DNA of 64,000 nucleotides from an uncultured Rhodospirillales bacterium (GTDB lineage Bacteria > Pseudomonadota > Alphaproteobacteria > Acetobacterales > Acetobacteraceae). The notes under the pieces were generated by a model. The model was not told where the DNA came from. It made no database searches and was given only the letters and a program-made list of their open reading frames with translations. How positions within the stretch are numbered: position 1 is the stretch's first letter; each line of letters begins with the position of its first letter. The stretch covers positions 1 to 64,000 of the forward strand of contig CAIPLM010000213.1 in the NCBI GenBank assembly GCA_903865895.1. The letters run 5' to 3'. Made by a program: the position numbers and the translations under genes. Below, one piece after another: positions 1,727 to 38,668 of the stretch.

Positions 1727-2506
1727 CTACTGCCAGCGCAGTATCTCAATCACCTGCCCTGGTGACTCCGCGGACGGATCCGGCCGGACGATGACGAGCC
1801 TGCGCGCCGTGGCGTCGCGCAAGCGGACCACGACCTCGATCCGCACGACCTCGGGGCTGCCGTCGGCCCCCGGTGGCGGCTGGCTGTCGGCGGCGATGCT
1901 GTGCAGAATGCGGCGCACGAACGGCGATGCCGCGGCCGGATCGACCCGCCCGTCGCCATGGGCCGTCACATGCGGCCCGAGCCGCGCGATCAACCCGGCA
2001 TCGATGCCTGGAATCAGCCCGAGATCCTCGGTCGCGCGGAAAGCCGTGCCGGGCGGGGTATAGGGCAAGCCGGCCGCCCGATAGGGCGCGGCGTCACCGG
2101 GGCCGGGGAGATGGAACTGGTAGATCAGCATGGCCAGCGGGCGGGCGCGCGCCGAGGGCACGCCGACCGCCTCGAGCACGGCGGCGAGCAGGGCGGGAGG
2201 CGCGGTATTGAGGTTGATGCGCCCGGCTTCGCGGCTGGCGATCACCTCGGCCTCGCCCCGGGGCAGCCGGATCGGGCGCCGCTGGCCGTTCGGCTCCCAA
2301 TGGCCCGGTCCGGAATCGAGCAGATGGAAGATCGCCTCGCTGACCAGCCCATCCGCGGCGGCGGCGGCCACGGCGGCCGCGCGCAGGGCCGTCGCGCGCG
2401 CGGTCGAGAGGCGGGTGCCGCCGGTCATCTGCGTGGCGATCAGCGCCAGCAGCGCCATCGTCCACAGCACGACGACCAGGATGAAGCCGCCGTCGCGCGG
2501 GCGCAT
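1727..2506 (-). CDS. gspK: Type II secretion system minor pseudopilin GspK
   Basis: GspK is the large minor pseudopilin that caps the T2SS pseudopilus. The ATG at 2506 gives MRPRDGGFILVVVLWTMALL, a class III prepilin leader with a hydrophobic N-terminal helix; an in-frame extension upstream is out-of-frame gspD sequence and is rejected. Residues near 90-105 carry the GRINLNTAP segment typical of GspK, within a helix-hairpin-helix-like region. The length of 259 residues is slightly short for the family. The start lies one base after the gspD stop, so the genes are coupled. It is the last gene of the long tpsA-gsp operon; nothing that looks like a strong terminator follows it. Confidence 0.92.
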   Translation of the reverse strand: MRPRDGGFILVVVLWTMALLALIATQMTGGTRLSTARATALRAAAVAAAAADGLVSEAIFHLLDSGPGHWEPNGQRRPIRLPRGEAEVIASREAGRINLNTAPPALLAAVLEAVGVPSARARPLAMLIYQFHLPGPGDAAPYRAAGLPYTPPGTAFRATEDLGLIPGIDAGLIARLGPHVTAHGDGRVDPAAASPFVRRILHSIAADSQPPPGADGSPEVVRIEVVVRLRDATARRLVIVRPDPSAESPGQVIEILRWQ

Positions 2507-2507
2507 G

Positions 2508-4787
2508 TCATGGCGCCAGGTGCTGGCGCAACCGGGCCGACGGGTCAGCCGCGCCCGATGGCGGCAGCGCCCGCAGCCGCTGCGGCACCGCGGCGGCGTT
2601 CGGCAAGGCCTCGCGGAGATCATCCGTCAGGTCACGCACCTCGCGTTGGCTGCGGATGACGTGCGGGGTGATGAGAACCAGCAGTTCGGTGCGGCCGCGC
2701 TCATTGGTCTGGGTGCCGGCGAACAGGCCGAGCAGCGGAACATCCTTGAGCCACGGCAGCCCCTCATTGCCGCGGCTGGCGCTGTCGCGGATGAGCCCGG
2801 CGATGCCGATCGTCTGGCCGTCCTGAACGACGACCCGCGAACTGACGATGCGCTGCTGAAAGGTCGGGCTGTCGATGCCCGAGGCCTTGGGCGAGGTGGT
2901 ATCGACGTCACTCACTTCCTGGGTGACGTCGAGGGTGACGAGCCCGCCCGAGTTCACCCGCGGCGTGACGTCCAGGATGATGCCGGTGGGCTGGTAGTTG
3001 ATGGAATTGACCACCGGCGCGCCGGCGGTGAGGGTGCTTTGCGCCGAGGCGGTCAGGTAGGGGACGAGCGAGCCGACCTGCAGGCGGGCCGGTTCATTGT
3101 CGACGACCACCAGCTGTGGCGCGGAGAGCACATTGACGGAGGTGACGGCCTGCAGCAGCGACAGCGCCGCTGGCGCGCCGCCGGCCCCGTTCCCGCCCAG
3201 CACGAAGCCGGGAAAGCTGGTGCCGAGCACGGTCGCGGCGGGATTGCCGACGGCGGTGCTGGCGTTGTTGAGGATGCCGACGATACCGTTGCCTTTGAAG
3301 AAGAACTGGGTGCCGTATTTCAGCTGGTCATTCAGCGTCACCTCGGCGATCGTGGCATCTATGCGGACCTGCATCGGAAGAATATCGATCTTGCGCAGCA
3401 TGAGTTCGATGGTTTCGCCTTCCTGGGCGGTGCCGTTGATGAGCAGGGCGTTGTTCTGCTCGTCGGGCAGGATGCGGATGCCGTCGGCGGCGTCATTGCC
3501 GCTGCCGCCGCTCTGGTCGAGGCCGCCGAGCAGGGGATTGGCCGCCGATTGCGGTGCCGCCGATGCCGTGGCGCCGGCCTGGCCGGAGGCCAGCGGCGCG
3601 GCGCTGACGCCACCGCGCGCGAAGCTCCCGCCGGCACTCGCGCCCCCCGCGGCCGCCCCGCTGGCCCCGCCGCCGGTCGCCCCGCCGCCGGCGGCCGAAC
3701 TGCCCCGGCCGAGCGATTGCTGCAGCATGCCGGCCCGGGCGCTGCCGCCCTGGCGCGATTTCGGCACCGCAGTGACCGCGTTGGGCGTGAAGGCGGATTG
3801 CAGGATATAGGCGACATCCTCGGCGCTGCTGTTCTGCAGGTAGTAGATCCGCCAGTAGCGGACCACGGCGCGGCGCTGGCGATCGAGCACGGCATGTACC
3901 GAGCGCGCCGCCTCCAGATAGCTCGGCTGGCTGGCGATCACCAGGACGGCATTGAGCCGCGGCAGGGCGGTGACGCGAACCAGGCCGCCGGTCACCGCGC
4001 CCGCCTGGCCGCGCAGCGCCTCCTGCAAGGCTTCGGCATGCTCGCGCGCGCTGCCCACCGATACCGGCAGCAGCGCGTAGGACTGGCCGACCAGGGTATC
4101 GACATCGAAATTGCCGACCAGGGTCTCGATCATGTCGAGCTGGTTGGGGTCACCGGCGATCACCAGGGCATTCAGCCCGGGCTCCGCCGCAACGCGCACG
4201 CCCTGCCCGATCAGCGGCTGCAGCACCTTGGCAAGCCCCTCGGCCGCGACAAATCGCAGCGGCACGATGCGGCTGCCGGCGGCGCCCGCCTGGGCAGCCG
4301 GGACCACACGGTAGAGCCCGCCGGCCGAGACCAGCGCGGCGCCGTTGCTGGAGAGCAGGGACTGCACGGTTGCCAGCAGCTCCTCGCGGTTCTGCGGCCG
4401 GGCGGTGTGCAGGGTGGTGGTGCCCCGCACCGCGGGGTCGATCGTGAAGCTCAGTCCGAGCATGGGGCCGAGGATCTGCGAGACGACCTCACGCAGGTCG
4501 GCGTCCGCGAAGTCGAGCGAGTACGCGCCGGGCCCGCCCTGCGTGGCGCGCGCCGCCGCCACCTTCGGCGCTCCCTGCACGATCTGCACCCGCGGCTCCG
4601 CGCCCGGCGCGAGCAGCACCCCGTTCTGCCGAACGGGGGCCGCGGTACTGGAGGGGATGGCGGCCACCGGCGCCTGCTGCGGCGGCGGGCGGTCGCGGCC
4701 GGCCGTGTCGGGCGGCACGCATCCGGCAAGCTGGAGGCACGCGAGCGCGGTCACAAGGACCAGGGGGCGGCAACGCCGGAAGTTCAT
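2508..4787 (-). CDS. gspD: Type II secretion system secretin GspD (lipoprotein)
   Basis: Outer-membrane secretin of the T2SS, 759 residues. The N-terminus is a lipoprotein signal with lipobox LAGC (about residues 20-23), as in self-targeting liposecretins such as HxcQ of Pseudomonas. N0 (about 88-160; DFADADLREVV) and N1-N3 ring domains (LNALVIAGDPNQL, ARLNAVLVIA-type repeats) follow. A Gly/Ala/Ser-rich linker (about 350-435) comes next, and then the secretin core with the VPWLKD-like GLPWLKDVPLLG..F and TELLVLITPHVI signatures near the C-terminus. No S-domain for a separate pilotin is evident, consistent with the lipid anchor. It overlaps the upstream GspC-like gene by 4 bp. Confidence 0.95.
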   Translation of the reverse strand: MNFRRCRPLVLVTALACLQLAGCVPPDTAGRDRPPPQQAPVAAIPSSTAAPVRQNGVLLAPGAEPRVQIVQGAPKVAAARATQGGPGAYSLDFADADLREVVSQILGPMLGLSFTIDPAVRGTTTLHTARPQNREELLATVQSLLSSNGAALVSAGGLYRVVPAAQAGAAGSRIVPLRFVAAEGLAKVLQPLIGQGVRVAAEPGLNALVIAGDPNQLDMIETLVGNFDVDTLVGQSYALLPVSVGSAREHAEALQEALRGQAGAVTGGLVRVTALPRLNAVLVIASQPSYLEAARSVHAVLDRQRRAVVRYWRIYYLQNSSAEDVAYILQSAFTPNAVTAVPKSRQGGSARAGMLQQSLGRGSSAAGGGATGGGASGAAAGGASAGGSFARGGVSAAPLASGQAGATASAAPQSAANPLLGGLDQSGGSGNDAADGIRILPDEQNNALLINGTAQEGETIELMLRKIDILPMQVRIDATIAEVTLNDQLKYGTQFFFKGNGIVGILNNASTAVGNPAATVLGTSFPGFVLGGNGAGGAPAALSLLQAVTSVNVLSAPQLVVVDNEPARLQVGSLVPYLTASAQSTLTAGAPVVNSINYQPTGIILDVTPRVNSGGLVTLDVTQEVSDVDTTSPKASGIDSPTFQQRIVSSRVVVQDGQTIGIAGLIRDSASRGNEGLPWLKDVPLLGLFAGTQTNERGRTELLVLITPHVIRSQREVRDLTDDLREALPNAAAVPQRLRALPPSGAADPSARLRQHLAP

Positions 4788-5278
4788 CGGAGGGTTCCTG
4801 GAGTACGAGGCGGCGTGGTTGGCAGGGTGAAGCGCGGCCGGAGCGGCGTGTCACCCTCCTCGCCGGTGAGCATGACCTCGCCGGGCGAGATCGACTGGAT
4901 GGTGTAGCGGCCGATCGTCTCGCCCGCCCGGCGGCGCAGCGGCGGGCCGGCGGCGGGTGCGAACAGCGCGACGGCGCCATCGGGCCCGTGCAGAACGCCG
5001 GCCAGGCGCGGCAGGTCCTCCGCCGATGCCGTGCCGGACGCCGCGGGCGCCCGCGTGCCGCGCCGGCCGGGGGCGAGCGGCGGGCGATCGGTCAGGGCGG
5101 TGACCGCCGCGTCGATATCCTCCTCCGCCCGCTCGGCCGCGGCCGGCCGGGCGGGGGCGCGGCGCTCGGCCACCTCGGGCACCGGCGTGGCGCCGGGTGC
5201 CGGGTCAAGCCATTCCAGCGCCAACGCGGCCGCGAGGACGGCGGCGAGGCAGAGCAGCGGCAGTTCGCGCGCCATCAT
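4784..5278 (-). CDS. T2SS inner-membrane GspC/GspN-like HR-domain protein
   Basis: A small bitopic protein (164 residues) with one N-terminal membrane helix (about 6-22), a Pro/Ala/Glu-rich linker (about 25-85) and a compact periplasmic domain (about 90-150: LPRLAGVLHGPDGAVALFA...AGETIGRYTIQSISPGEVML). This layout matches the homology-region domain of GspC/PulC, which links the inner-membrane platform to the secretin. No PDZ or coiled-coil domain is present. Its position between gspM and gspD and the ATGA overlaps on both sides fit that role. It could equally be labelled GspN or PilP-like; family assignment rests on layout and context. Confidence 0.7.
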   Translation of the reverse strand: MMARELPLLCLAAVLAAALALEWLDPAPGATPVPEVAERRAPARPAAAERAEEDIDAAVTALTDRPPLAPGRRGTRAPAASGTASAEDLPRLAGVLHGPDGAVALFAPAAGPPLRRRAGETIGRYTIQSISPGEVMLTGEEGDTPLRPRFTLPTTPPRTPGTLR

Positions 5279-5856
5279 CCGCCCCCCGGCGCGCCATCGC
5301 GCGGGCGCCAGGCGGTGACGGTGACGACGGTATCGATCGTGTTGTCCTCGTCGCGCGCGGCCCGTGACAGGGCACGGAGCTGGACATTATCGGCCACCAT
5401 CACCGTATCATGCGTGGCGATCGCCGCGAGCAGCCGCACCAGCCCATCCCAGGGCACACTCAGCGTGAGCCGCAGGCCGATGACCTGGTGATCGCCGGCG
5501 GGCTCGGTGGGAAGCGTCTCGATACTGGCGATGCGCACGCCGGCATCGCGGGCGATGCCGTCGATCACCTGTTGCAGGGCGGCGGCGGCAAGCGCGTCGG
5601 TCGTCCCTTCGAGGGCGCCTCCCCCTGCCGGGGCATCCCCGCCTTCGGCCACCGCGCGGCGCAGCGCGGGCAAGGCCGCGGCGAGGCCGCGCATCCGCGC
5701 AAGCGCCGCCTCCTGCCGCTCGATCCGCGTCTCGCGCTCGCCGTAGAGGTCCAGCAATGGGGCGGCGATGGCGGCCCACAGGGCGGCGAGCAGCAGCGCG
5801 GCGACGCCGAGCGCCAGCAGCCGGCCACGGCGCCCCTCGGGCAGCGCGGGGCTCAC
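5275..5856 (-). CDS. gspM: Type II secretion system protein GspM
   Basis: Inner-membrane platform protein of the T2SS, 193 residues. One N-terminal membrane helix (about 12-33) is followed by a coiled-coil stretch (about 35-65, ERETRIERQEAALARMRGL) and a periplasmic ferredoxin-like domain (about 85-185; LQQVIDGIARDAGVRIASIE, then WDGLVRLLAAIATHDTVMVA). This is the subtype-b GspM (PilO-like) pattern. It starts inside the end of gspL (4-bp overlap) and its own end overlaps the GspC-like gene. GspM usually partners GspL, encoded just upstream here. Confidence 0.85.
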   Translation of the reverse strand: MSPALPEGRRGRLLALGVAALLLAALWAAIAAPLLDLYGERETRIERQEAALARMRGLAAALPALRRAVAEGGDAPAGGGALEGTTDALAAAALQQVIDGIARDAGVRIASIETLPTEPAGDHQVIGLRLTLSVPWDGLVRLLAAIATHDTVMVADNVQLRALSRAARDEDNTIDTVVTVTAWRPRDGAPGGG

Positions 5857-6857
5857 GGCACGAACTCCACCTGAAGCGCGAACAACTCGTTCCCGGCATC
5901 GCCGTGCACCACCGCGGCCGTGAAGGATGGGTTTCGCAGGTGCGGGCTGGCCGCCAGCAGGGGGATCAACCGGCTTGCCGCGCCGGTTGTCTGCCCCTCG
6001 CCCAGCATCTGGCCACGGCGCAGCGACAGGGAGGCCAGCCAGGTGTCATCCGGCAGCGCGTTGGCCATCGCGGCCAGCGCCCGCAGCGCGCCCGGCGCGG
6101 CACGCCGCCCGGCTGCGACCGGACCGGCGGCGGCCTCGCCGGAGAGGCGCGGGCGCAGCGCCTGCGCCTCGTTCACCGCGCCACGCAGCCGCGCCGTTTC
6201 CTCCGCGGCGGCGTCGAGCACGCGTTGCTGGCGGATAAAGGGCGTCGCGAGCGTGGCCAGGGCGAGCGCGGCACAGACGCAGCCGAGGATGGCGAGACGC
6301 TGGTGGCGGCGCCGGGCCGCCACCGGATCGGGCGTGGCCAGCGGCAGGTCGCGCGCCGTGCCGTCGGCGAGGTTCGCCTCGACGAGGAGCGGCCGCACCC
6401 CCAACCCCTCCAGTTCGGCCAAATCGGCGGCGATGCCGGCACGCGGCAGCACCAGGAGCTCCACATCCATCGATTCCGCCGTGGCGCCCCGCCTGGCCGG
6501 CTGTGCGCTCCAGATCGCGTTCTCGGCGGAGAACGGGGTGAGCCGGTCCAGCTCATAGCGGAACAGCGTCTCAAGCCCGCTGGCCGCGGCCGGCGGCAGC
6601 GCCACGATGCGGCGCAGCATCCGGTCCTGGCTGACCAGGATGAGCGGCCCGGGCCGGCGGCCGAGGCGCGCGCGGGCGAACGGCGTGGGGGCGAACGGCG
6701 TGGGGGCACGCAGCCGCCGCCCCTGGCGCCGCCGCACCTGCCAGCCGCCCTGCCCGCGGATCAGCAACAGCCCATCGACCGGCTGGCCGTGCGCCTGCGG
6801 GGCGGCAAACACGTCGGACATCTGCCCGAGCCACCAGCGGCAAAACTCAACCAGCAC
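5853..6857 (-). CDS. gspL: Type II secretion system protein GspL (PilM/PilN-like)
   Basis: T2SS inner-membrane protein, 334 residues, that normally ties the GspE ATPase to the membrane. The cytoplasmic part (about 1-180) is a shortened actin-like domain with the LPPAAASGLETLFRYELDRL segment typical of GspL/PilM. A membrane helix follows near 190-208 (LAILGCVCAALALATLA). The periplasmic part begins with a coiled coil and holds a PilN-like domain (PDDTWLASLSLRRGQMLGEG). It overlaps gspJ by 11 bp and gspM by 4 bp. A short duplicated segment, APTPFAPTPFA, lies near residues 51-61. Confidence 0.85.
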   Translation of the reverse strand: MLVEFCRWWLGQMSDVFAAPQAHGQPVDGLLLIRGQGGWQVRRRQGRRLRAPTPFAPTPFARARLGRRPGPLILVSQDRMLRRIVALPPAAASGLETLFRYELDRLTPFSAENAIWSAQPARRGATAESMDVELLVLPRAGIAADLAELEGLGVRPLLVEANLADGTARDLPLATPDPVAARRRHQRLAILGCVCAALALATLATPFIRQQRVLDAAAEETARLRGAVNEAQALRPRLSGEAAAGPVAAGRRAAPGALRALAAMANALPDDTWLASLSLRRGQMLGEGQTTGAASRLIPLLAASPHLRNPSFTAAVVHGDAGNELFALQVEFVP

Positions 6858-7464
6858 GCGGACCTCCGATCACGGCAATGGGAAATCCGGCCAGGGGCGC
6901 CGCCACGATGTCCGGCCAGCGCCGCCCATCGCCGGCGCGAAAGGCGAGGTGCAGCCGCACCAGCGCGGGCGGCTCCGGCTTGTCCCAGACATTGACCCAG
7001 GCCCCTGCGCCCGGGGCCGGCTGGCGGTAGCTGACATCCATATGGTCAAGCCCTTCCGCGAGTACCATCGAGCGGGCGGCCGGCGGTACGGTCCAACGCA
7101 CGTTCGGCCGCGGCAGCAGACGCAAGACCAGCCGCCCGCCCGCATCAACCAGCACCACCGCCTCGAACTCCGAGGGCGGGCCGCCTTGCGGTGACGGCAG
7201 CCGGGTGAGGACGACGAAGCGGTGACGGTCCCCGGTGATCGGGCCGGTTTCGGCGCTGGCATCGGCGGGCAGCGACTGCTCGATCAGGCGGCGCAACAGC
7301 CGGTCCAGCGGCTCGATCTGCGCCGGCCAGGCGCCAATCGCCGCCCGTGTCCGCCAGGCCCGGACCCCGAACTGCATCCCCTGGTTGAGGCTGAGCATGA
7401 CCATGCCGGCCACTGCCAGCATCGCCACCACCTCCACCAGGGTGAAACCCGCTTGCCGCCTCAT
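6847..7464 (-). CDS. gspJ: Type II secretion system minor pseudopilin GspJ
   Basis: Minor pseudopilin of the T2SS pseudopilus tip, 205 residues. The ATG at 7464 gives MRRQAGFTLVEVVAMLAVAG: a short basic leader, the G/FTLVE prepilin-peptidase site and the hydrophobic helix. A start ten codons upstream is possible but would give an unusual leader. The globular part (about 35-205) has GspJ features such as W-R-x-A near 32-36 and FVVLTRLPSPQGGP. The ATG overlaps the gspI stop by 4 bp. A prepilin peptidase gene (gspO/pilD) is not in the window, so processing must depend on an enzyme encoded elsewhere. Confidence 0.9.
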   Translation of the reverse strand: MRRQAGFTLVEVVAMLAVAGMVMLSLNQGMQFGVRAWRTRAAIGAWPAQIEPLDRLLRRLIEQSLPADASAETGPITGDRHRFVVLTRLPSPQGGPPSEFEAVVLVDAGGRLVLRLLPRPNVRWTVPPAARSMVLAEGLDHMDVSYRQPAPGAGAWVNVWDKPEPPALVRLHLAFRAGDGRRWPDIVAAPLAGFPIAVIGGPRAG

Positions 7465-7883
7465 GGCGTGCCCGCCAGGCCGACGGCGAGGCACGAGGAG
7501 GCGAGGCTCATTGTCCTGCCGGCGCGCCCGACCGTGACCTCCACGGCATAGAGCTTGACCCGCCGCGCACGCTGCTGCCCGGCATCATCGTCGCTGGCGA
7601 CGGTGGTGGAGGCGAGTTCTGACACGCGGGACGACCAGCGAAAGCCGCCGCCGTCATCACCCTCGGCGCGCGACGCCGCGAGCTGTCCGCCGTGGCACAG
7701 CGCGGTGAGCCGCGACTGCGCCCGCGACACCATTTCGATCGATCCCGCCGAGACGCTCTCCGCAAAGAGCGACTCCGCGCCGACCCGGTAGAGCAGGCTC
7801 AGCGCCACCGCCGCGATGGCGAAGGCCACCAGCGCCTCCAGAAGCGTGAATCCCGCCTCGCCGGACCACGAGGTACCGCTCAT
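7461..7883 (-). CDS. gspI: Type II secretion system minor pseudopilin GspI
   Basis: Minor pseudopilin, 140 residues, with leader MSGTSWSGEAGFTLLEALVA and the G/FTLLEA cleavage site near residues 11-12. GspI is the first protein of the tip complex with GspJ and GspK, whose genes follow here. The usual acidic leader residue and Glu at mature position 5 are present. The start overlaps the gspH stop (ATGA) and the stop overlaps the gspJ start. The C-terminal part is short and poorly conserved, as is normal for GspI. Confidence 0.9.
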   Translation of the reverse strand: MSGTSWSGEAGFTLLEALVAFAIAAVALSLLYRVGAESLFAESVSAGSIEMVSRAQSRLTALCHGGQLAASRAEGDDGGGFRWSSRVSELASTTVASDDDAGQQRARRVKLYAVEVTVGRAGRTMSLASSCLAVGLAGTP

Positions 7884-8302
7884 TGGGCGCCCCGGACATC
7901 CACCCGGCCGGTCAGCCAGTCCACCCCGACGGCGACCTGCCGCGCCGTGCCGACCACCAGCACCCGCCCGCCGGTCCCCGCGCCATCCGGGGTAAAGACG
8001 ATCGCCGCACGGTCAAGGACCTGCAGCGCCACGCCCGGCGGCAACCTGACCAGCAGCGCGCCGGCCCGGTAGCCGCCCTGTGCCGGCGCGACCGCGACGG
8101 GTTCCGCCTGGGCGATCGCGGTCGCCCGGGCCAGCCGAAGACGCGCCGCGATGCCCTCGGCCGCCGCGTCCACGTCGATCGACCCGCCACGGCGAGGCAG
8201 CGCCATGGCCGTCAGGGTCACGGCAAGGCCGAAGATCGCCACCACCACCAGCGTCTCGAGCAGGGTGAACCCGGCCGCGCCGGGGGGGGGGGCGGGTGTC
8301 AT
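7880..8302 (-). CDS. gspH: Type II secretion system pseudopilin GspH
   Basis: Minor pseudopilin GspH, 140 residues. The leader MTPAPPPGAAGFTLLETLVV carries the G/FTLLET prepilin-peptidase site, followed by the hydrophobic helix (about 12-33). The family segment AARLRLARATAIAQAEPVAV (about 51-70) is clear. It is coupled to gspF and gspI by 4-bp overlaps. The leader codons 4-8 are written as a run of eleven C residues (G on the plus strand, 8282-8292). One added or lost base would shift the frame before the membrane helix, which could switch the gene off or be a sequencing artefact. Confidence 0.9.
   Translation of the reverse strand: MTPAPPPGAAGFTLLETLVVVAIFGLAVTLTAMALPRRGGSIDVDAAAEGIAARLRLARATAIAQAEPVAVAPAQGGYRAGALLVRLPPGVALQVLDRAAIVFTPDGAGTGGRVLVVGTARQVAVGVDWLTGRVDVRGAQ
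8282..8292 (-). repeat. C11 homopolymer tract inside the gspH leader
   Basis: Eleven consecutive G on the plus strand (C on the coding strand) within codons 4-8 of gspH. It is the longest mononucleotide run I noticed in the window. Tracts of this kind are prone to slipped-strand change; no functional evidence is visible here. Confidence 0.9.
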
Positions 8303-9492
8303 TGCGCGAGGTCGTTCAGGCCGAGCATGGCCAGCAGCAGCGAGGAGACGATGCCGGCGATCACCGCGCCCATGATGATGGTGATGGCCGGCGTCAACAG
8401 CGACACCAGCCGCTGGCTGGCCTCGCGCGTCGCGGCCTCATGGATATCCGCGGCACGCAGCAGCACCTCGCCCAGCCGCGCGGTCTCCTCGCCGAGACGC
8501 ACGAGGTGGACCATGCGGGGGGGAAACAGCCCGGCCGTCTCCAGCGGCGCCGAGAGCGTGCCGCCGTTGCGCACCATCTCCGTCGCCCCGTCGAGTGCCG
8601 CGACCGCGGCGGCGTTGCCGACCACGACGCGCACGATGCCGAGCGCGGGGACCAGCGGAACGCCATTGGCCAGCAGGCTGCCGAGCGTGCGGCACAGCCG
8701 CGCCGCGACCGCCTCGCGCATCAGCCCGCCGAACAGCGGCAGGCGCAGGCACAGCCTGTCCAGGGCCAGCCGCGGCCCGGAACGGCGCAGCACCAGGCGC
8801 GCCAGCAGCACCAGTCCCAATAATCCGGCTCCCGCGGCGGCGCCGTAGCGCTCGACCGCCTCGCCGGCGCTGACCAGGAAGCGGGTGGAGGCGGGCAGTG
8901 CCGCGCCCGACTGCTCGAACAACGGCACGAACTGCGGCAGCACCTGGGTGAGCAGCAGCATGATGGCACCGATCGCGGCGACCAGCAGGAGGCTTGGGTA
9001 AATCATCGCCGACTGGATCGAGGCCGCCCGCGCGCGCTGGCGTTCGAGCAGCTCGGCCAGCCGGTCCAGCGTGGCGGCGAGGTTGCCGCCGGCCTCGCCG
9101 GCGCGCACCAGCCCGATGATCAGCGGCGGGAAGGTCGCGGGCCGGGCGGCCATGGCGGCGGCCAGTGCGTTGCCGTCGCGCACCGCATCGCGCAGCAGCG
9201 CGGCTTCGCGGCGGACACGGGGCGCGGCATGCTGCGCGATGAAGCGCAGCGCGCGGTCGAGGTCCTGGCCGGCGCTCAGCATGGTCGCCAGTTCGCGCAC
9301 GAGCTGGGCGAGATCTCCGGCCGCCAGCCCGCTGGCGCCGAGCAGGCTACCGCGGGTCCGCGCGATCGACAGTGGCACCGAGCCGGCCTTGCGCAGGCGC
9401 TGAGCGACGGTGGCTTCATCCGCCGCCTCCATCGAGCCGCTGACCGTCCGCCCCCCGCGTTCCAGCGCCGTGTAGCTCCAGTTGGCCATCAC
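8299..9492 (-). CDS. gspF: Type II secretion system inner-membrane platform protein GspF
   Basis: Polytopic platform protein, 397 residues, that couples the GspE ATPase to pseudopilus growth. It has two T2SSF domains (about 70-195 and 270-390), each with the GE-x-x-G motif (LVRAGEAGGNLA and LVRLGEETARLGE). Three membrane helices lie near 165-190, 215-235 and 370-390, and the N-terminal ANWSYTALERGGRTVSG opening is typical. The first of two ATG codons overlaps the gspE stop (ATGATGG); either could be used. The end overlaps gspH by 4 bp. Confidence 0.95.
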   Translation of the reverse strand: MMANWSYTALERGGRTVSGSMEAADEATVAQRLRKAGSVPLSIARTRGSLLGASGLAAGDLAQLVRELATMLSAGQDLDRALRFIAQHAAPRVRREAALLRDAVRDGNALAAAMAARPATFPPLIIGLVRAGEAGGNLAATLDRLAELLERQRARAASIQSAMIYPSLLLVAAIGAIMLLLTQVLPQFVPLFEQSGAALPASTRFLVSAGEAVERYGAAAGAGLLGLVLLARLVLRRSGPRLALDRLCLRLPLFGGLMREAVAARLCRTLGSLLANGVPLVPALGIVRVVVGNAAAVAALDGATEMVRNGGTLSAPLETAGLFPPRMVHLVRLGEETARLGEVLLRAADIHEAATREASQRLVSLLTPAITIIMGAVIAGIVSSLLLAMLGLNDLAQ

Positions 9493-11192
9493 GCGCGGTC
9501 GCCTGCGTCGTTCTCGGCGCGGATGCTGCGAGTCACCTCCTCCAGCGTCGTCACCCCCGCCAGCGCGGCGGCGACGCCGGCATCGAACATCGTCGTCATG
9601 CCCGCCGCCACCGCCGCCCGCTCGACGTCAACATGGTCCGCGCGGCGGAAGACGAGGCGCTCGATGGCGGTGTCCGGGGTCAGGAACTCAGCGATTGCCT
9701 GGCGGCCGCGATAGCCGGAGCCCCGGCATTGCGGGCAGCCAACCGCATGCCACAGCCGGATCGGCCGCTCCGCGACCAGACGGGTGAGCTGGAAGCGTTC
9801 GACCAGCTCCGGCGCCGCGATCTCCGATCGGCGGCACGCGGTGCAGAGCCGCCGGACCAAACGCTGCGCCAGCACGCCGCGCAGCACGGCCGTGATGAGG
9901 TAGTCCTCCAGCCCCATGTCGCGCAGCCGGGTGATCGAGGCGGCGGCGGAGTTGGTGTGCAGGGTCGAGAGCACCAGATGCCCGGTCAGCGCCGCCTGCA
10001 CGGCGATCTGCGCGGTCTCGGCGTCGCGGATTTCGCCGACCATGATCACATCGGGGTCCTGGCGCAGGATCGAACGGAGCAGGCTCGCGAAGGTCAGCCC
10101 GATTTGCGGCCGCACCTGGATCTGGTTGACCCCCGCCAGCTGGTATTCCACCGGGTCCTCGATGGTCACGATTTTGCGGCTGATGGCGTTCAGCGACATC
10201 AAACCGCTGTAAAGCGTGGTGGTTTTGCCGGAGCCGGTCGGCCCGGTCACCAGAAGGATCCCGTTCGGCATCTGCAAGACCTCGCCGAACCGGCCGGCAA
10301 CCTTGGGGGTGAGGCCGAGGCGGGCCATGTCGAATTGCACGGCGCTGCGGTCGAGCACCCGCATCACCACCGTCTCGCCCCACATCGAGGCAATCGTGGA
10401 GACGCGGAAATCGACGTCCTGGCCCCGTACCGGCAGGCGGATCCGGCCATCCTGCGGCAGGCGGCGTTCGCCGATGTCCAGCCGGGCCATGATCTTGATG
10501 CGCGAGGTGATGGCGGCCGCGAGGCTGGCGGGCTGGGATTCCGCCTCATGCAGCACCCCATCGTAGCGGTAGCGCACCTGAAGCCGGTCCTCGAAGGGTT
10601 CGATGTGGATGTCCGAGGCGCCGGTCTCCACCGCGCGGGCGATCAGCTGATTGACCAGCCGGATGATCGGCGCCTCGGACGCGAGGTCCTTGAGGCGCTC
10701 AGCATCCTCGGTTCCGCCTTGCGTGTCCTCGGCATCGGGCGCGTCCTCCTCCGGCAGCAGCCGCTGCAGCGCCGCCTCGATATCGATCGGCACCGCGACT
10801 TCGACCCGCACCTGCCGCCCGGTTGCCGCCTCGATCGCCTCGATGACGAAGCGGTCGAACGGATCGGCGAGCGCGACCGCCAGCATGCCGCCCTCCTCGG
10901 CCAGCGGCAGCGCCCGGCTGGCGCGCAGGAAGCGGTGCGTCAGCAGGCCGGTGCAGGGGATCGGCGGGGCGGCCGGGTAGCGGTCCGGCGTGGTCACCAC
11001 GGTGCCGAGCATGCGGGCGGTCGCGGCGGCGATGTCGCGCTCGCTGCACAGGCCCATTTGCAGCAGCACGCTGTCCAGCCGGCGGCCGGTCTCGCCGGCC
11101 AGCAGGCGGCCGCGCTCGATGCTGCGCGGATCAACCCCAAGCGCGGCCAGAGCCGCGGCAAGGCCATCGGCATCGCCGAGTGCCGCGGTCAT
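9489..11192 (-). CDS. gspE: Type II secretion system ATPase GspE
   Basis: Hexameric cytosolic ATPase that drives the pseudopilus, 567 residues. The N-terminal GspE_N domain (about 10-150) is followed by the ATPase domain with Walker A GPTGSGKTTTLY (about 317), the Asp box (TIEDPVEYQ), Walker B (DVIMVGEIRD) and the His box (STLHTN). A zinc-type region with CTAC and CPQC pairs (about 450-490) is intact. The ATG overlaps the stop codon of the giant tpsA gene upstream (ATGA at 11189-11192), so secretion ATPase synthesis appears coupled to that exoprotein. Gene order E-F-H-I-J-L-M-C-D-K lacks gspG, which is found at 40.6 kb. Confidence 0.96.
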   Translation of the reverse strand: MTAALGDADGLAAALAALGVDPRSIERGRLLAGETGRRLDSVLLQMGLCSERDIAAATARMLGTVVTTPDRYPAAPPIPCTGLLTHRFLRASRALPLAEEGGMLAVALADPFDRFVIEAIEAATGRQVRVEVAVPIDIEAALQRLLPEEDAPDAEDTQGGTEDAERLKDLASEAPIIRLVNQLIARAVETGASDIHIEPFEDRLQVRYRYDGVLHEAESQPASLAAAITSRIKIMARLDIGERRLPQDGRIRLPVRGQDVDFRVSTIASMWGETVVMRVLDRSAVQFDMARLGLTPKVAGRFGEVLQMPNGILLVTGPTGSGKTTTLYSGLMSLNAISRKIVTIEDPVEYQLAGVNQIQVRPQIGLTFASLLRSILRQDPDVIMVGEIRDAETAQIAVQAALTGHLVLSTLHTNSAAASITRLRDMGLEDYLITAVLRGVLAQRLVRRLCTACRRSEIAAPELVERFQLTRLVAERPIRLWHAVGCPQCRGSGYRGRQAIAEFLTPDTAIERLVFRRADHVDVERAAVAAGMTTMFDAGVAAALAGVTTLEEVTRSIRAENDAGDRA

Positions 11193-14100
11193 TCGAAGGT
11201 ATCCCCGCCGAAGCTGACCACCTCGACCGTGATGATGCCCGGGGCCTGCTGGCCACCGGCGCGCCGGCCGCCATCGCCCCCGCCGGCCGAAGCCGCCGCC
11301 GCCGCCGCGCCCGAGGAGGCCGCGGCGAGGGCGCCGACATTGGGAACCGACAGGCTCGGCAGGCCGAAACTGCCGCCGGCGGACGTCACGCCGCCGGTAC
11401 CCACCACGGCGCCGGTGAAGGAGGTGCGGCCGGAGGAGCGGATACCGGCCTCGCCGGTATCGATGACGCCGATTTCGACGACCAGCACGACATCGCCCGG
11501 CGGAATGCCGGAAACCGGCGCCAATGTGGCGATGCCGGCGCCGGTCGTCGGCGTGGTCGGCGAGAGGGCGATGGCGCCGGTATCGCTGTAGAGGATGCGC
11601 GGCGGCTGGTAGATCGAGGTGGTCTTGGAGCCGGTGCCGGCATTGATGTCACCGCCCTCGGACCAGATGTCGATCGAGCCGCCGAAGGTGGTGAAGATGC
11701 GGCTCTGCCCGAGCAGTACGCTGCTGTAGGTCGCGATGTCGATATTCCCGGAGCCGAAGGTGATCAACCCCGCCGCCGGCTGGCCGGCCGCGGGCGTGGG
11801 CGGGGCGAGGCTGCCGAGACCGAGAACCAGCCGCCCGCCGGGCGCAAGGACGCTGATATCCCCGCCAAACCCGGTCGATATGCCCGAGCCGCCAAACAGC
11901 GTGATGGCATCACCGGTGCCTGAAGGCGATGCGATGGCGGGGTCCGGTTCGAGCGCGGCATGCGCCGCGCGGCCGCGCGCCAACGAGCTGAGACGGCTGG
12001 CCGAGGTCGGCGCGTAGCGGGCATCATCGCGCCCCAGCGCGCCGGTCTGTTCCAGGCCGCTGGCGGCGAGTTCGTTGTCGTAGATCTTCAGCAGAAACGG
12101 CAGTCTCTGGTAGAGCGGCATCGCGTCGAATTGCCGCAGCGCGGACGCCTGGATGACCGATGGCCCGAAGGACGCCCATGTGCCGGCCGGCACCCCGGCC
12201 GGACGGACGGGGGCGACGAAGCCGGCATTGGCCTGCATCCAGGCGACGAGATCGCCGTCATAGCCGTGCGCCACGGTTTTGAACGGCGCCGCGGGAAGGG
12301 AGTGGTTGTCGCAGAACACCCGCCCGGCGATACAACCGAGCTCCTGGCCGGCGAGCGGCGGCTGGCGCTTGATGGAGGCGCCGATCGGCGCGGTCACATC
12401 CGTCAGCGTCCCGGTCAGGGCGGTGATGGCGCCGGCACCATCGGTGGCAAACGTGATCGCGGCCTCGGCCGCACCGGACACGCTCGGGGCGACGAACTGC
12501 ATCGCCGCCCCGGCATCGCTGACGGTGCCGAGATAGAGCGCGGAGAAGCCGTTCCAGTCCGGCGCGTTGTCGGCCAGGCCCGCCATCACCAGGATCGAGG
12601 CGCCGCCCGATTGCCCGCTGTTACCGCCCACCACCTGCCCCAGGCTGAACAGCGATCCGTGATCGCCCTGGTAGAGGTTGCGGCCGGCCATCACTTCCAG
12701 CGTGCCGGGGCCGGCGATGTCGATGTTGGCGTAGAAGACGTCCCGCCCGGCGCTGACGACGGTGACGTCGTCGGCGGCGAGGTTGAGCACGAGGTTGCGG
12801 GTCGTCCTCAGGGAGCCGGGGGCACGAACGGCCGCGCTCGGCAGCAGGTTGGGATTGCCGGCGGCGATGATATCGCGGCCGGCCAGGATCGTGGCCGGCT
12901 TTGCCGCCAGGTACCAGGTGCCAACCGCGTTGCCGCCGGACAGGAAGCGCCAGGTCTCGCCGAAGCCGAGATTCACGATGTCACCGGTGGCGGCGTAGAT
13001 GCGCGCGGGCTGCGTGTCGGCGGCGTGGATGGCGGTGGCGGGCGTGTCCGCGGTGAAGGCGAACAGCGAGGTGAAACCGCCGAAATTGAGCTTGTTGGTG
13101 ATATTGTCGATGCTGAACAGCGAACCTGGCGCCGGTTCGTAGGTTCCCTGGAACGCCGGCCGGAATGGGGTGGCAAGGTCCTGCGCGCCGGTGGGCGCGC
13201 CCGAAATATCAACCGCCATGGCCTGCTGCGAGGAGAGCGCGGCGAAGTTGACGCTGCCGTGCGCAAGCAGTTCCAATTGGCCCATCGGCGCCGGCGCAAG
13301 TTCCAGCGCGGGGCCGAGCGCGCCGCTGGTGCCCTCGATGCCGCCGAGCAGGATGTCGCCGCGCAAGGCGGCCACCCGCAGGGTCGGCGGGTAGGACAGG
13401 TTCATGTCGGCCTGCACCATGTCGCCGGTCACCGCCGTGGCGGGCACGACATCGCCGCCCGCCGAAACCAGCGTCACCGCGGTATCCTTGCGCCACAGGG
13501 TGAAGGACGACCGGCCGCCACCGGTGAAGCTGGTCTGCGATCCGTCCACGACGCCGCTCCACGGCGTCGTGGACGCGGTCGGCACCCGGGCCGGGTCGAT
13601 CACCGCGCCAAGCACGAGATCGCCGCGGCTGGCGATGCGCGCCGATGCATCCGCGAGGAGCAGCAGCGGTCCGCCCGAGACATCGACGGTCGCTTGAATG
13701 AGCGGGCCCGCCGAGGACAGCGTCGATGCCGGCGCGATGCGGCCAATGGCCCCCGCATCGATGTTGACCGTGCCGCGCATGGCGCCGATGACACCGAACA
13801 GCGCGCTGCCCACGCCGCTATTGGCGAACGACGTCGTCGCCCCGTTCAGCCGTCCGGCCACCTGGACAGTGACATCCCCGCCCCCGGTGCTGGTGATGGC
13901 ACCATCGATGACCCGGCCGCTGGCGGCGGCAACGACGTCGAGCGCGGTCGAGTTGTAGACGCTCGCCGCATTGGTGACTTGATGCCCGGCATCGCCACCC
14001 GCCACCAGCGTGACGTTGCCGCCCCCCAGCGTGCCAAATCCGGCGAAACCGGCCATTTCGAGGTAGTTGTTGCCGTCGGTGGAATCGACATAGGAAGCGA

Positions 14101-17100
14101 AGTTGATCCACCAGGCCGTCGCCTGGCCGGGGCTGCCACCCTGGCGCCATAGCCAGTTTCCAACGGCGTCGCTCTGATATGTTGCCGTCCCGCGCGTGCG
14201 GATGGTCACCACATTGCCGCCGACGCTGCCCTGGGCGGTGACTGCCAGATTGCCGCCATCGATCGGGAACCACGCCTGGTAGTTGGCCAGCAACGCGTTG
14301 TAATCGAAGGCCTTGCTCGATCCGGTGGCCAGTACCTGTCCGTTTGACTTGAAGCCGGTGCCCCGCGGCAGCTGGAAGTCGCTCGAAACGCCGGGGCTCT
14401 GCACGCCCGCGGTGTAGACGCCGAACAGCGAGTCCATGACGATATCGCCGCCGGCATTCAGCGCCAGATCGCCGGTACCGGTGCGGATGACGCTGAGGGC
14501 CGGGCGCAGCGCCTTCGGATTGGAGGTATTCACGTAGTGCGTGTCCGCCAGCGTTATGTTGCCGCCGGCACCGCTGGCCGACAACTGGCTCGCCGGCAGG
14601 ACCGCCGCATTATCGGCCGAGGCGAGATTGGCGCCCCCGACCAGGCGCATGGACCACGAGTCGCCGCCGGCGGCCAAGGCGCCGATGGCAATGACGCTCC
14701 CTTGAATCCCGTTGCTGATCGGCCGCAGCGCCGCCAGCGCGGCGTTATCGACGAAGTGCATGATCGTGCCGCCGGGGATCGTCGCGCCCGCCGGCACGGT
14801 GGCCGCCTTGGACAACCCGACCGAGGTGACCGCGAAGGCGGATAATGGCGCCCCCGCCGGCCAGACCGTGTCCGGCGCGAGCCGCGCCGTGAAGGGCAGG
14901 ATCGCGCCGGCATCGAGCATCACGCCGGCCAGACGGGTTCCGGCCGGGATCAGCGCCCCTTTTGCGAACAGGACCGAGCCGTCGGCGCGGCGGATGGCCG
15001 ATGTGGCGATCCAGCCGCCGCCGCTGATGACGTATTGCCCCGCCAGCGCCACCGGCCCGGGGATCAAGGTCTGCGCCCGGATGAGGCCGCCGGTGATGGT
15101 GATGGGAAAGCCGAGCGCCGCCCCGGAGGTGGTCAGGAAGCGCGTGCCGATGTCCAGCCGGACCGGGTTCGGCACCGTCACGCTTTGCCCGGCGGGCTCC
15201 ACACCCTTCGGCACCACCCAGCCCTGATCATCCGGATTGCGCCGCGTGCCAACCTCTGGCGCCGGCAGGAAACCGTCGGACAGGCTTCCGTAGACGTTCA
15301 GGTTGCCGCCCGCGCGGATGATCAGCGATCCGGGCTCGCTCGCCGTGCCCTGCCCCTGGGCACCCAGACCCTGGTAGCGCATTCCCATGAGGTTGATCTC
15401 GCCACGCAGCGTGAGGTCGCCCGCCGAGACCAGCGCGACGCCGGGGCGGAGATGGAACTGCGCATAGGCGGTCAACCCGGCCAGCCGCGACAGCAGGTCG
15501 GGATTCTGCGTCGCCGCGCTCATGAAAGCCTGGCTGTCGAAATCGGCCATCATCACCGTACCCTGCGTGACCTGGCTGCCGTCGGGTTGGTAGGTCGCCA
15601 TGCCGTACAGCGCGATGGAGGCCGCTCCCTTCACCACCAGAGGACCGGACGCGTCGATCGCGACGTCATTCGTCGTTGCGGCGCCGGCGCGGCGCGGCGC
15701 GTAGATGGACACCTGGCCAAAATCGGTGCCGGTGGCATTGGAGAGGTCGAGCGCCGCACCCGTGGCGAGGCTGAGAGTGCCGGCCGTCGAGGACAGGGTG
15801 ATGGTGCCACGATTGGCGGACGCGATCGCGACACCGTCGCTGTCGAGATGGGCTTGCGTCGCGTGCGCGTCGAGGATGGCGGAGCCCGCGATGGTGAGCG
15901 CGTCGCGGGCGGCCAGCGCGATGCTGCCGGGCGAAGCGCCGCTGGCATCGATGGTACCGCTGACGGTCAGGCGTCCGCCGCTCGCGGTGATTGCCACCAG
16001 CTGAGCCCGCACCGTGCCGGTGACGTCGATATCGCCGTTTGCCACGTCAATCCGGCGCGCGGCGGTGAAACCGCCGGCATTGAGCTGCGCGTTGAGGGCC
16101 GCGAAATCGTTCAGGGTTCCGGTGCGCAGGATGAATTGCCCCCCCGCGCCGGCCGGGGCCGTCCCATCGAGACTGCCGGCAATCTTGACCATGCCCGCCC
16201 ATGCCGTCAGCGACACGCTGCCGGCGTCGGCGGCCGCGGAGGCGACGGAGAGCGCGCTGCCATCGGCGATGATGACATTGCCGGCCGTGCTCTCAAGGCT
16301 GATCAAGCCGCCGGCCACGCCGCGGGTCTGGTCGAACAGGGTGGTCGCGGGCGCCGCCGCCGAGAGGGTTGCACCGGCGCCGATCGTCAGATCGCCGCCA
16401 GTCGCGGTCAGGGCGATCCGGCCACCCTCCATCGACAGCGTGTTCGCCACGCTCACCGTTGGTGCCCGCACCGTCAGGGTTGCGCCGAGGCTGGCATCGC
16501 TGGCAGCCGCGGGCAACGCGCCGGCCGGCGCCGCGAACGTCACCGACCCGCCGGCGGTGAGGCTCAACGCAGCGGCCGAACTGCCGACGACGCGCGGCGT
16601 CGAAACCAGCACCGCGCCGCCGGTGCCGGCAACCCCGGAACCGGGCAGGCTTGCATAGACCGACAGCGAGCCGTTGTTGTTGAATTCGAGCTGGTCCCGC
16701 GCGACCAGTCTGACGGCGCTGAAGCCGGCGATGACGCGATCCATCCGGACCGTCTGCGACGGCGCCACGCCATCGGCATAGCCAAGCACCAGCCGGCGCG
16801 TTTCGATGTCGAGCGTTCCGGTGCCCGACCCGGCCCCCCCGGCCACCACGCCGCGCGGCAGGATCGACGCCGCGGCGCTGCCGCTCGACGCAACGCCGTT
16901 CCACTCCAGCGTGTCGACCGTCAGGCGCGCCCGGTCCCCATTGCCGCCCTGCCCATAGATGGCAGGCGTGTTGAGGATCAGGGTCTGCAGCCCGCCAGTG
17001 GCGGTCGAGAGATCGACGCTGCCGTAGAAGCCCACCATGCCGGAGGCGGTGATGTTCAGCGCCTGCAGGCCGGGCACGCCATTCGCCGGGTCGCCGCCGA

Positions 17101-20100
17101 TCAGCCGCGCAAGCACCTGCGCGTCGAGCGTCAGCCCGCTGGGGAGCGGCACATTCGGGTCGGCCGGCACGCCAATATTGACGACCGGAACGGATAATTG
17201 GAGCGACCGGCTGCCGATCACCGAGGCAACGCCGATCGACACCGCCTGCTCGGTCGCGCCGATGACGCTGCCCTCGGAGCGCAGCGTGGCGCCATCCGCA
17301 ATCGTCAACGGACCGCTTGACGGGCGCTGGCTCAGATTGATCGGGGAGAGCGTCAGCAATCCGTTGCTGACCATCAGCGCGGTGCTGCGCTGGACGTCAT
17401 AGCTCAGCCCGGTCCGGGCACTGTCGTAGGAGGGCGCGCCCTGTCCGGTCGTATCGATCGTCGCGCCGGTCTGCACCGTGATCGCGCCCGGCGCCTGCTG
17501 GCTGGACGCGATCAGGAAGACCTCGGCCGCCTGCACCGTCGCCCCGGCGTCGATCGTCACGCCTCCGGAGACCGCACTCAGCAGCACGACGGGGAAACTG
17601 GCCGAGTTGGCGGTGCCGGGGCTGTAGGTTACGCCGCCGCCGATCACCAGGCGCGGCGCGGCAAGCCGGTCGAGCGACGCGGCGCTCACCGCCACCGTGC
17701 GGATGGAATGCGCTCCGGACGGGCCGGTGATTTCGATGATCGACTTGAGGCTTGACGTCAGCAGCACGGTGCCGCCGAACCCGCCCTCGGAGGCATCGAA
17801 TTCCGCCTGGCCGGCGAACGAGAGCGCCTGGTTGCGCAGCGGCGTCGTGGCATAGGACAGCACGAGCGATCCGGCATCGCGCGGCAAGAGCGGGCGCTGG
17901 CGCTGGAACGTCGATGCCTGGGCGATCTGGAAGTCGCTGTAGCTCTGCTCGTTGTATTGCGCATAGCTGCGCACCGCGGTGCCTGGCGTGACCAGGGCCG
18001 TGATCGGTACCGTGCCCTGCACCCTCGTATCGGCAATGCCGAGCGTGGCGGCGATCTGCCATGTCTGGTAGGCGACGGCCGCGGCGCCGGTGCCAGCCGG
18101 GCGCGCGGAGGATAATTCGATCCGGAACGCCCCCGGCAGCAGCGCGTAATACGACGGCAGCAGCGTATAGGTGCCGGCCGGCAATCCCGGCACGCCGCCG
18201 GCGATGTCCACACGCTGGCCGAGCGCGGGGAGCGAGCCATAATATGACGCGGAAAGGTCCAGCCCGCTCAGCGGGGCGGTCATGGCGGTGTAGCCCGGCA
18301 GGATGGCATAGACCGGATTGCTCGCCAGCGTCGCCGCGGGCGCCGTGGTCGAGTTCGGGTTGAACCGGGACAGCGGCGTCACGAGGAAGTCCGTCGAGCC
18401 GCCGCGGCCGGCCACGAAACCCTGGGACACGAGGCTGGTGGTGCCGCCGCTGTTGCTCTGCAACTCGCCCCCGCCACCGCTCAGCGTGCCGCCGCCCCGC
18501 ATGTCGAGCACCGCGCCCGCGCTGGCGATCACGCTGCGCGAGGCCAGCGTGATGGCCGGCGCGAATCCCGTCGCGGTGACGCCGTTGTAGTTGTACGAGA
18601 CGCCGTCGGACGTGCCGCCATACGGCAGCGTCAGCCCCAGGGCGCTGACCGAGGTCTCGGAGCCGGCAAGCAGCCGGACGCGCGTGGTATCGGCACTGCC
18701 GCCGGTGCCGGCACCGATCAGCCCGTTGCCGGACGTCGCGACGCCCAGATTGATGCTGCCAAGCGGCGCGCGCACCACGCCCCCCTGCACCACCTCACCC
18801 GCGGCCAGGGTGAGGCTGCCGCCGATGGACAGCGGCGCGGCGGGGCGCGGCCCCCGGGCGGCGGCGATGGTCAGCCGGCCGGAGCTCGAAAGGGGGTTGG
18901 CCGCGGCGCCGGCGGCATAGTCGTAACCGGCGACCACCAGCGCCGAGGCGCCGGCGGCGGGGTAGAGTTGCCCGGCGGTGATCGCGATGTCGCCATTGCT
19001 GACGAGGCTTGTCTTGTTCGACAGCGACCCGTTGGCGGGCAGGAAGCGCAGGTCGCCATGGCTGATCAGATCGATGCGCTTGAAGCCGGCATAGCCCGAC
19101 GCCGCGGCGCCGGCCGCGGCGCCCGTGCCAAACCGCACATCGTTGACGACATCGAGGGTGTCCGCATCGGCGAGGAACGTCGCGGACGATGACAGCGTCG
19201 GCGGTGTCCAGGGCTGCGTGAGCAACGCGGCCACCTCACCGGGCGCGATGCCGACCGAGGTCAGGCCACCCAGGTGGACATAGGGGGCGACGACGCGGAC
19301 CGCGCCGCCGGTGGCACTGTCGGCGATGATCCCATTATCAAAGCGGATCGCCTGCGAGGCGTGCAGCGCCACCTTGCCGACGAACGCGAAGAGTCCCCGG
19401 TTGGAGAGGGCAAGCGTGCCGAAGCCGCCGCTCGATATCGCCTCGGCGCTGATATTCGCCTGTCCGAAGACGGCCGCCGGGGTTGCCGCCCCTTCCGCGA
19501 GGTCCAACGGCAGAAGGTGTTCCGGTTGGGCGGAGATCGTCATCACCCGCGGCACCAGTTCACTCGCGGCGGGCACCGAGAAGGTGGTGTTGAAGATCGG
19601 CGTTTCCATCGTCACCGACAGCGTCCCGCCCGCGGCGCTGGTGCCGCCAGCCGCGGCGCGAAGCGTTCCGTCGAGGTAGATGCCGTTGTACGAGGAGAGC
19701 GCGATCGTGCCGCCATTGCCGGCCGCGATGACGGCTCCGGCGGCCACCACCGCATCGCCATTGCCCGCGGCCCGGCCGGCGGTCGGGTCGATGAGCCCCT
19801 GCGCCCCGCTGGCGGTGAGCACCGCGCCAGGGCGGATGAGTATCTGGGCGGCGGTGGTCCGCAAAGTGCCGTCGCCTGCCGTGCCGCCCAGGCCGCCGAG
19901 GCTGATCGATCCGCCGTTTTGCACGATGCCAAACGGACGGCCCCTATTATCGGCCTGCGTCACGGCGATGCCGCTGGCATCGAGCCGCCCCGTTCCGCCG
20001 ACCCGGATGGCCAGGCCTGGGGCATAGAGCGACGTACGCTGCGCGTCGGTGCCATCCTGAAAGCGCGTATTGACCAGGCTGATCGAACCGCCGTGCGCAA

Positions 20101-23583: not shown

Positions 23584-23749
23584 AAGCCGACCAGCGCCGT
23601 TCACGCCTCCGGTCCATTGACTCGCGAGTTGCAGGCCACCGCGGGGCCCGGATACCCAATTTTCCGGGCGTCCAACGGGCGGTAGAGGCTCACGCATGCG
23701 GGATTTATTTCGATAATAAAAATGTAAACAAGCGCGGTATGATGGTACA

Positions 23750-23782
23750 AAGTCATCGAATTGTCACGATTCTGCGTAATAC
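23750..23782 (+). promoter_or_regulatory. Candidate Pho box and -10 element
   Basis: AAGTCAT-cgaa-TTGTCAC (23750-23767) is two 7-mers in an 11-bp register. They match the PhoB half-site CTGTCA(T/C) at 5/7 and 6/7 positions. TAATAC begins nine bases later (23777), about where a PhoB-dependent -10 is expected. The element points toward the glycosyltransferase gene at 23917. Visual match only; no matrix score was computed. Confidence 0.4.
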
Positions 23783-23916
23783 AAATGTCACTTCATGTCG
23801 ATATTTACAGTTTTTTCACTACGACCTATAAGCAGCGCCATGAGGGCCGCGGCGTGTTCGCGCGTCGAATTGCTGATCGCGGCGACGCGATCCGATGCCG
23901 ATGGACATACCGAGGA

Positions 23917-38564: not shown

Positions 38565-38623
38565 CACCGGCTCCACCACACGTGAAACCGCCTTATACCG
38601 ACCCGCCAACCCCACGCGCGATA

Positions 38624-38668
38624 CCAACCCGCACAATGCGTGGAGGAGTGACGCATTGTGCGGGTTGG
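38624..38668. terminator. Perfect 18-bp hairpin, candidate terminator
   Basis: The arms CCAACCCGCACAATGCGT (38624-38641) and ACGCATTGTGCGGGTTGG (38651-38668) pair without mismatch around a 9-base loop. It lies 60 bp after the TPR-glycosyltransferase stop. No T-run follows, so it may instead be a Rho-assisted stop, an RNA-stabilising hairpin or a palindromic repeat element. Confidence 0.55.

Follow-up and report, generated by a model that had tools for sequence, protein, structure and literature searches.

The window, a 64,000-nucleotide stretch of contig CAIPLM010000213.1 from an uncultured bacterium of the Acetobacteraceae, contains the genes of a type II secretion system (T2SS) together with those of a type Vb (TPS) system with a giant exoprotein (Table 1). 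The genes tpsA-gspE-F-H-I-J-L-M-C-D-K all lie on the minus strand and form a run of 21.7 kb that begins with the ATG at 23455 and ends with gspK at 1727. The product of tpsA comprises 4,088 amino acids from this ATG, where it has a signal-peptide-like start, or 4,156 amino acids from the TTG at 23659; alignment of the upstream nucleotides did not fix the start, the sequences being too diverged. Both partners of a type Vb system are present, TpsA with an N-terminal TPS domain and TpsB with POTRA and a ShlB-type barrel, with tpsB located 35 kb from tpsA. As shown by Pfam, the core of the T2SS is also present, namely the ATPase E, the inner-membrane protein F, the secretin D and the major pseudopilin G. 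The run is nevertheless not a whole T2SS, because gspG lies elsewhere, on the strand opposite to the run and 135 bp behind a gene encoding a phosphate-binding protein. Among solved structures, DING proteins and a putative alkaline phosphatase match the latter protein best, and it is likely to be a cargo of the T2SS.

Table 1. Features of the tpsA-T2SS locus, in window coordinates.
Feature	Position	Strand	Evidence or remark
gspK	1727..2506	-	Pfam T2SSK_1st 7e-6
gspD secretin	2508..4787	-	Pfam Secretin 7e-44
gspC-like	4784..5278	-	Position only, without Pfam match; homologues in the same place in G003 and Acidisphaera
gspM	5275..5856	-	Pfam T2SSM_b 1.5e-17
gspL (alternative GTG start 6857)	5853..6821	-	PilN/GspL-type match
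gspJ pseudopilin	6847..7464	-	Position and N-methylation motif (sole Pfam match)
gspI pseudopilin	7461..7883	-	Position and N-methylation motif (sole Pfam match)
gspH	7880..8302	-	Pfam GspH
gspF	8299..9489	-	Pfam T2SSF 5e-49
gspE, T2SS ATPase, 567 aa	9489..11192	-	Pfam T2SSE 1e-141
ATGA overlap	11189..11192	-	ATG, gspE start; TGA, tpsA stop
tpsA, giant TPS exoprotein	11189..23455	-	TPS PF05860 8e-21; C-terminal DUF3739 PF12545 1.5e-21
AT-rich (33-42% GC) promoter-like stretch upstream of tpsA	23661..23860	.	Common to the divergent glycosyltransferase gene
PstS/DING-type phosphate-binding or phosphatase protein	38937..40505	+	Pfam PBP_like_2; PDB DING matches 2q9t 1e-24, 4f18
gspG, major pseudopilin, outside the run	40641..41081	+	Pfam T2SSG 1e-28
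PpiC-type peptidyl-prolyl isomerase	52008..52901	-	
Small exported protein, retained in the module in different genera	52898..53392	-	Without Pfam match; position conserved
Porin_5 outer-membrane porin	53396..55075	-	Pfam 4e-170
TonB-like	55080..55784	-	
ExbD	55800..56207	-	
DUF2341-LamG-ExbB fusion	56220..58202	-	
tpsB, outer-membrane TPS transporter	58203..59771	-	Pfam ShlB 1e-21, POTRA_2

Seven of the ten junctions of the run (tpsA/E, F/H, H/I, I/J, L/M, M/C and C/D) are 4-nt overlaps, whereas E and F overlap by 1 nt (4 nt if a GTG start is used), J and L overlap by 11 nt if gspL starts at GTG and are 25 nt apart if it starts at ATG, and the D/K gap is only 1 nt, so that gspK belongs to the run. 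The original prediction that the junctions of E, F, H, I, J, L, M, C and D all overlap agrees with most of these, with the reservation that J/L may be a gap; it did not name gspK. At the tpsA/gspE junction the minus strand reads ATGA (TCAT on the plus strand), with the tpsA stop TGA at 11191-11189 and the gspE ATG at 11192-11190, just as predicted. The gspE frame has no other ATG, GTG or TTG between 11192 and the preceding stop at about 11648; the start is unambiguous and the overlap is therefore independent of the choice of start. We rejected the notion that ATGA is remarkable in itself, since 4-nt overlaps make up most junctions of the run; as the commonest junction of the operon it is ordinary, whereas the pair of genes that it connects is not.

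Promoter-like, AT-rich stretches precede tpsA, pstS and tpsB, whereas the tpsA-gsp run has none in its interior; the stretch upstream of tpsA contains a weak sigma70-like match at 23767-23739 (minus strand). The scan of the tpsA/gspE junction, which has a GC content of 63%, returned no promoter or terminator match, and an AT-rich gap is also absent. Because gspG-pstS and tpsB are placed apart from the run and have their own AT-rich upstream stretches, the locus as predicted from these signals is made up of at least three transcripts. Co-transcription of tpsA with the gsp genes is likely, given the overlaps, the retention of ATGA in the sister genome G003 and the location of the sole AT-rich promoter-like stretch of the run upstream of tpsA. 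The earlier idea of joint control holds to this extent, and the suggestion that an early stop in tpsA lowers the T2SS would apply to gspE to gspK and not to gspG, on its predicted separate transcript.

The element AAAGTCATSRNWTT occurs at 23749-23762 (+), 38733-38746 (-) and 59877-59890 (-), in the promoter regions of tpsA, pstS-gspG and tpsB, and these are its only three exact matches in the 5.69-Mb genome. The pattern was derived from the same sites, so that the fair test is a shuffle, and a result as good was reached in 9 of 300 three-way shuffles and 4 of 500 pairwise ones, which is weak to moderate support. It was not found upstream of tpsA in G003, and may be regarded as a candidate shared element, a lead rather than a result.

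ATGA overlaps are described (PMC6728339, PMC10666635) as able to couple translation by termination-reinitiation, and tpsA-gspE resembles the coupled overlapping pairs described there, which are co-directional with a spacing of -4 or -1 nt. Translational coupling from tpsA to gspE is plausible. An SD-like GGCGGGG of moderate strength (-5.7 kcal/mol) precedes gspE and is identical in G003, and through it gspE could also be initiated independently. A comparison of the window genome (G000) with G003 along tpsA indicated somewhat higher conservation of synonymous sites over the last ~180 codons (z about 2.8, the top of 115 windows, weak after correction), that is, codons ~3900-4088 or window positions ~11189-11750, where a promoter or ribosome site for gspE could be hidden. 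These two features would suit a different arrangement, with separate control of the two systems: a promoter for the T2SS genes would lie within the 3' end of tpsA, and the ATGA would reflect the usual tight packing of GC-rich genomes. Variovorax, G408 and Bordetella ansorpii would likewise fit, since hairpins or regulator genes intervene there and T2SS and tpsA have the appearance of separate units. We consider this arrangement unlikely, although it deserves some weight: the other promoter regions of the window are clearly AT-rich, whereas the junction has neither such a stretch nor a promoter-like match, as far as sigma70-type signals are concerned.

The gene pair tpsA-gspE was found in one of the four other genomes of the genus, G003 (record Kiruna_bin-10730), the TpsA of which has 59% identity to that of the window genome. 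The junction in G003 is the same ATGA with differing flanks (TTCGAATGACC versus TTCCAATGATT), so the overlap is kept in the sole other genome of the genus that has the pair. In more distant relatives the T2SS is still linked to tpsA, but the exact junction differs, and the direct fusion was seen in one genus only, in two metagenome-assembled genomes. Outside the genus, terminator-like hairpins, regulators or other genes intervene: the co-directional tpsA and gspE of Acidisphaera sp. S103 are separated by a TPR-glycosyltransferase gene, those of the alphaproteobacterium G630 by 2.8 kb and an antisense pstS, the T2SS lies upstream of tpsA at a distance of ~1 kb in G019, a hairpin lies between tpsA and gspG in Variovorax OK212, and ~200 nt lie between pstS and tpsA in G408 and B. 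ansorpii.

Scanning 84,980 species genomes for the DUF3739 tail yielded 54 loci with a common module, tpsA-tpsB-DUF2341/ExbB-ExbD-TonB-Porin_5-PPIase, and the order tpsB-exbB-exbD-tonB-porin-p52898-PPIase is kept in Janthinobacterium, Variovorax, Stenotrophomonas, G019, G052 and G630. The window has the same parts, in this order, as the modules of Janthinobacterium, Variovorax and Stenotrophomonas, but those mostly have no adjoining T2SS, and most DUF3739 loci likewise have tpsB-exbBD without a T2SS alongside. A T2SS adjoins tpsA in alphaproteobacteria, namely the genus of the window (including G003), Acidisphaera, G019 and G630, and also in Variovorax (two strains), B. ansorpii (two loci), Mitsuaria and G408. 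The linkage thus extends over Alpha-, Beta- and Gammaproteobacteria, usually on the same strand, and a PstS/DING gene is nearly always present in the linked loci. In beta and gamma members, genes for an STN protein, an ECF sigma factor and FecR accompany gspG K L D E F - pstS - tpsA, and in Variovorax the parts of this set are supported by Pfam. A close counterpart is the supercluster of G630 (tpsA - pstS - gspE F G H I J L M K - tpsB - exbB - exbD - tonB - porin - PPIase), which has the same parts and a T2SS co-directional with tpsA, and which differs from the window in the intervening 2.8 kb with antisense pstS and in its other T2SS lineage.

Among 369 genomes drawn evenly from the class of G110, 23 were over the DUF3739 cut-off, and 22 of these were new to the sample. 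In this gamma sample a gspE-family gene lies ≤15 kb from tpsA in 5 of 22 genomes against 0.92 expected (P about 0.002), an estimate that includes G155, G411 and G241, some of whose 'T2SS' matches are possibly T2SS-like pilus systems. In the alpha set, which mixes near relatives with a class sample and is not fully independent, four of nine genomes are linked against 0.26 expected (P = 0.0007 with the window removed). Both estimates assume random placement and include PilB-like hits, so that the expected number is higher. Among 100 relatives, a full-length gspD is present in all five DUF3739-positive genomes, against 28 of the 100 overall.

Several of the loci surveyed have features of their own. 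The Methylomagnum plasmid locus L148 combines a pstS-type gene with tpsB and tpsA, and two alkaline phosphatase genes and TonB-ExbD-DUF2341 lie in the vicinity. It adds to the phosphate theme, and contains a Cys-every-fifth RiPP cluster as well. In G253:C3:145001-160000 (L099), a gspD-E-F set precedes a second DUF2341/ExbB-ExbD-TonB set, divergent from the tpsB-tpsA-exbBD module. The alphaproteobacterium G815 has nine DUF3739 genes, none of which shares a contig with its three T2SS gspE hits. L046 (JAHREJ010000011.1), titled Bacillus subtilis, contains a proteobacterial DUF3739 TPS module similar to the Stenotrophomonas one, and the assembly is mislabelled or contaminated.

In the GspE trees, the window and G003 sequences (100/100) fall inside a clade of the ordinary T2SSs of the same family, most of which are unlinked to tpsA, while Variovorax, Bordetella, Mitsuaria and G408 form a separate clade (100/100) and G019 and G630 a third group. 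The window GspE lies outside the Burkholderiales vreAIR-linked clade, in a tree without P. aeruginosa Hxc sequences. Nor is an inherited Hxc lineage supported as the source of the T2SS, a single clade of TPS-linked GspE being rejected: holding the 11 confident linked GspE together, a group defined by linkage before the tree was inspected and from which the doubtful G155, G411 and G241 hits were left out, costs 509 log-likelihood units (AU test, p-AU 0.00045). One origin being rejected, the linkage was made, or remade, more than once. Judged from these trees, different T2SS lineages came beside DUF3739 TPS genes or were exchanged in place, and this repeated joining of distinct lineages is the strongest sign of a useful pairing. 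That a T2SS copy merely landed behind tpsA by chance, with no functional link, would fit the confinement of the direct fusion to one genus and the position of its T2SS in the ordinary clade of the family; it is very unlikely in view of the repeated pairing, the association with several T2SS lineages, which far exceeds expectation and is mostly same-strand, and the co-regulation already known in P. aeruginosa (PMC2729926).

The P. aeruginosa PAO1 locus comprises vreA-vreI-vreR, the hxc T2SS, lapA, pdtA, pdtB, exbB2, exbD2 and tonB4, followed by the porin PA0696, PA0697, PA0698 and the PpiC protein PA0699 (PMC7035377). Its hxc-pdt set belongs to the sigmaVreI regulon and is PhoB-dependent (PMC7035377, PMC2729926), and hxc-like genes with tpsA occur also in P. 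fluorescens and Burkholderia vietnamiensis (PMC2729926). The window resembles PA0674-PA0701 (PUMA3) in having a T2SS, a DING-like phosphatase, a giant TpsA and TpsB in one region, together with ExbB, ExbD, TonB, a porin and a PpiC PPIase; the likeness to PA0692-PA0699 is by gene list (PMC7035377) and not by sequence. Since T2SS and TPS share one control in P. aeruginosa, the idea of two export routes under one control has a precedent and is already known in kind. The two routes had been called unrelated, a description that calls for revision, as DUF3739-type TPS and T2SS are recurrently linked and, in P. aeruginosa, co-regulated (PMC2729926, PMC7035377).

The control itself differs, however. 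Unlike the P. aeruginosa locus, the window has none of the vreA-vreI-vreR regulators, and a genome search for FecR-family (VreR-type) regulators found none in G000, G003, G019, G046 and Acidisphaera, so that sigmaVreI-type control as in P. aeruginosa is impossible in the loci of this family. PhoB boxes are at chance level in the window (three sites at three mismatches, 2.5 expected), in contrast to the PhoB-dependent Pseudomonas set, and the T2SS is joined to tpsA by ATGA. By comparison of the two loci, the operon itself would be the obvious replacement for sigmaVreI-type control in the genus of the window. What is new here is the genome-wide absence of VreR/FecR, the joining of the T2SS to tpsA as one operon and the rejection of one GspE origin.

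We therefore favour, with a probability of roughly 0.6, the reading that the window contains the Acetobacteraceae counterpart of the hxc-lapA-pdtAB-exbBD2-tonB4 locus, with tpsA and the T2SS co-expressed at the operon level. The TPS system would put the giant DUF3739 exoprotein on the surface, accompanied by the ExbB/ExbD/TonB-porin-PPIase set and a dedicated T2SS, the probable cargo of which is the DING/PstS-type phosphate protein. Since the ten T2SS genes trail tpsA co-directionally and with overlaps, a message of ~21.7 kb covering all of them is probably driven from the AT-rich promoter ahead of tpsA, and ribosomes ending tpsA probably help to start gspE. The VreR/FecR family being absent from the genome, the two routes would be co-expressed at the operon level, a task performed in P. 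aeruginosa by sigmaVreI and PhoB, while gspG-pstS and tpsB-exbBD-tonB would stay on two further transcripts.

It is usual to regard T2SS and TPS as export routes that are independent of each other. Their repeated linkage, from the regulon level in P. aeruginosa to the operon level in the genus of the window, suggests that each delivers part of a single surface function, plausibly acquisition of phosphate together with adhesion, and the locus would be a natural case of an operon connection replacing a regulon connection. We regard this linkage as the most valuable part of the study, since it makes a functional dependence of the two routes testable. A stronger, speculative version, to which we attach a low probability, is that the T2SS and the DUF3739-type TPS are interdependent, with the T2SS or ExbB/ExbD/TonB exporting or energizing what the exoprotein needs at the surface and selection repeatedly joining unrelated T2SS lineages to tpsA; if so, the start/stop fusion in the window would be the extreme of selection drawing the T2SS next to tpsA. 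It is most unlikely that the two form a single export route in which the T2SS or the ExbBD-TonB complex helps to move or anchor the exoprotein: the repeated linkage, the conserved C-terminal DUF3739 tail and the dedicated ExbB/ExbD/TonB set adjoining tpsB would be consistent with it, but most DUF3739 loci with tpsB-exbBD have no adjoining T2SS, and PdtAB has been described as a TPS that functions by itself (PMC7035377).

Further genes lie within the locus. TPR-glycosyltransferase genes (GT9-like and GT41/OGT-like) are located at 35086-38564, 41088-42278 and 50028-52004; a GT41-like gene adjoins tpsA in G052, and a TPR-glycosyltransferase gene has the same neighbour in Acidisphaera, as described above. 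Glycosylation of the exoprotein by these enzymes is possible. A Hint (hedgehog/intein-type) domain protein is encoded at 29842-31923, with relatives in the linked Acidisphaera locus beside pstS-gspG, and two related exported proteins without a Pfam match are encoded at 44752-45960 and 48827-49939, with a homologue in the G003 locus. A long near-perfect inverted repeat (CCAACCCGCACAATGCGT ... ACGCATTGTGCGGGTTGG) at 38620-38675, flanked on one side by a TPR-glycosyltransferase gene and on the other by the pstS promoter region, which is very rich in AT (25% GC), may be a terminator or a mobile-element remnant.
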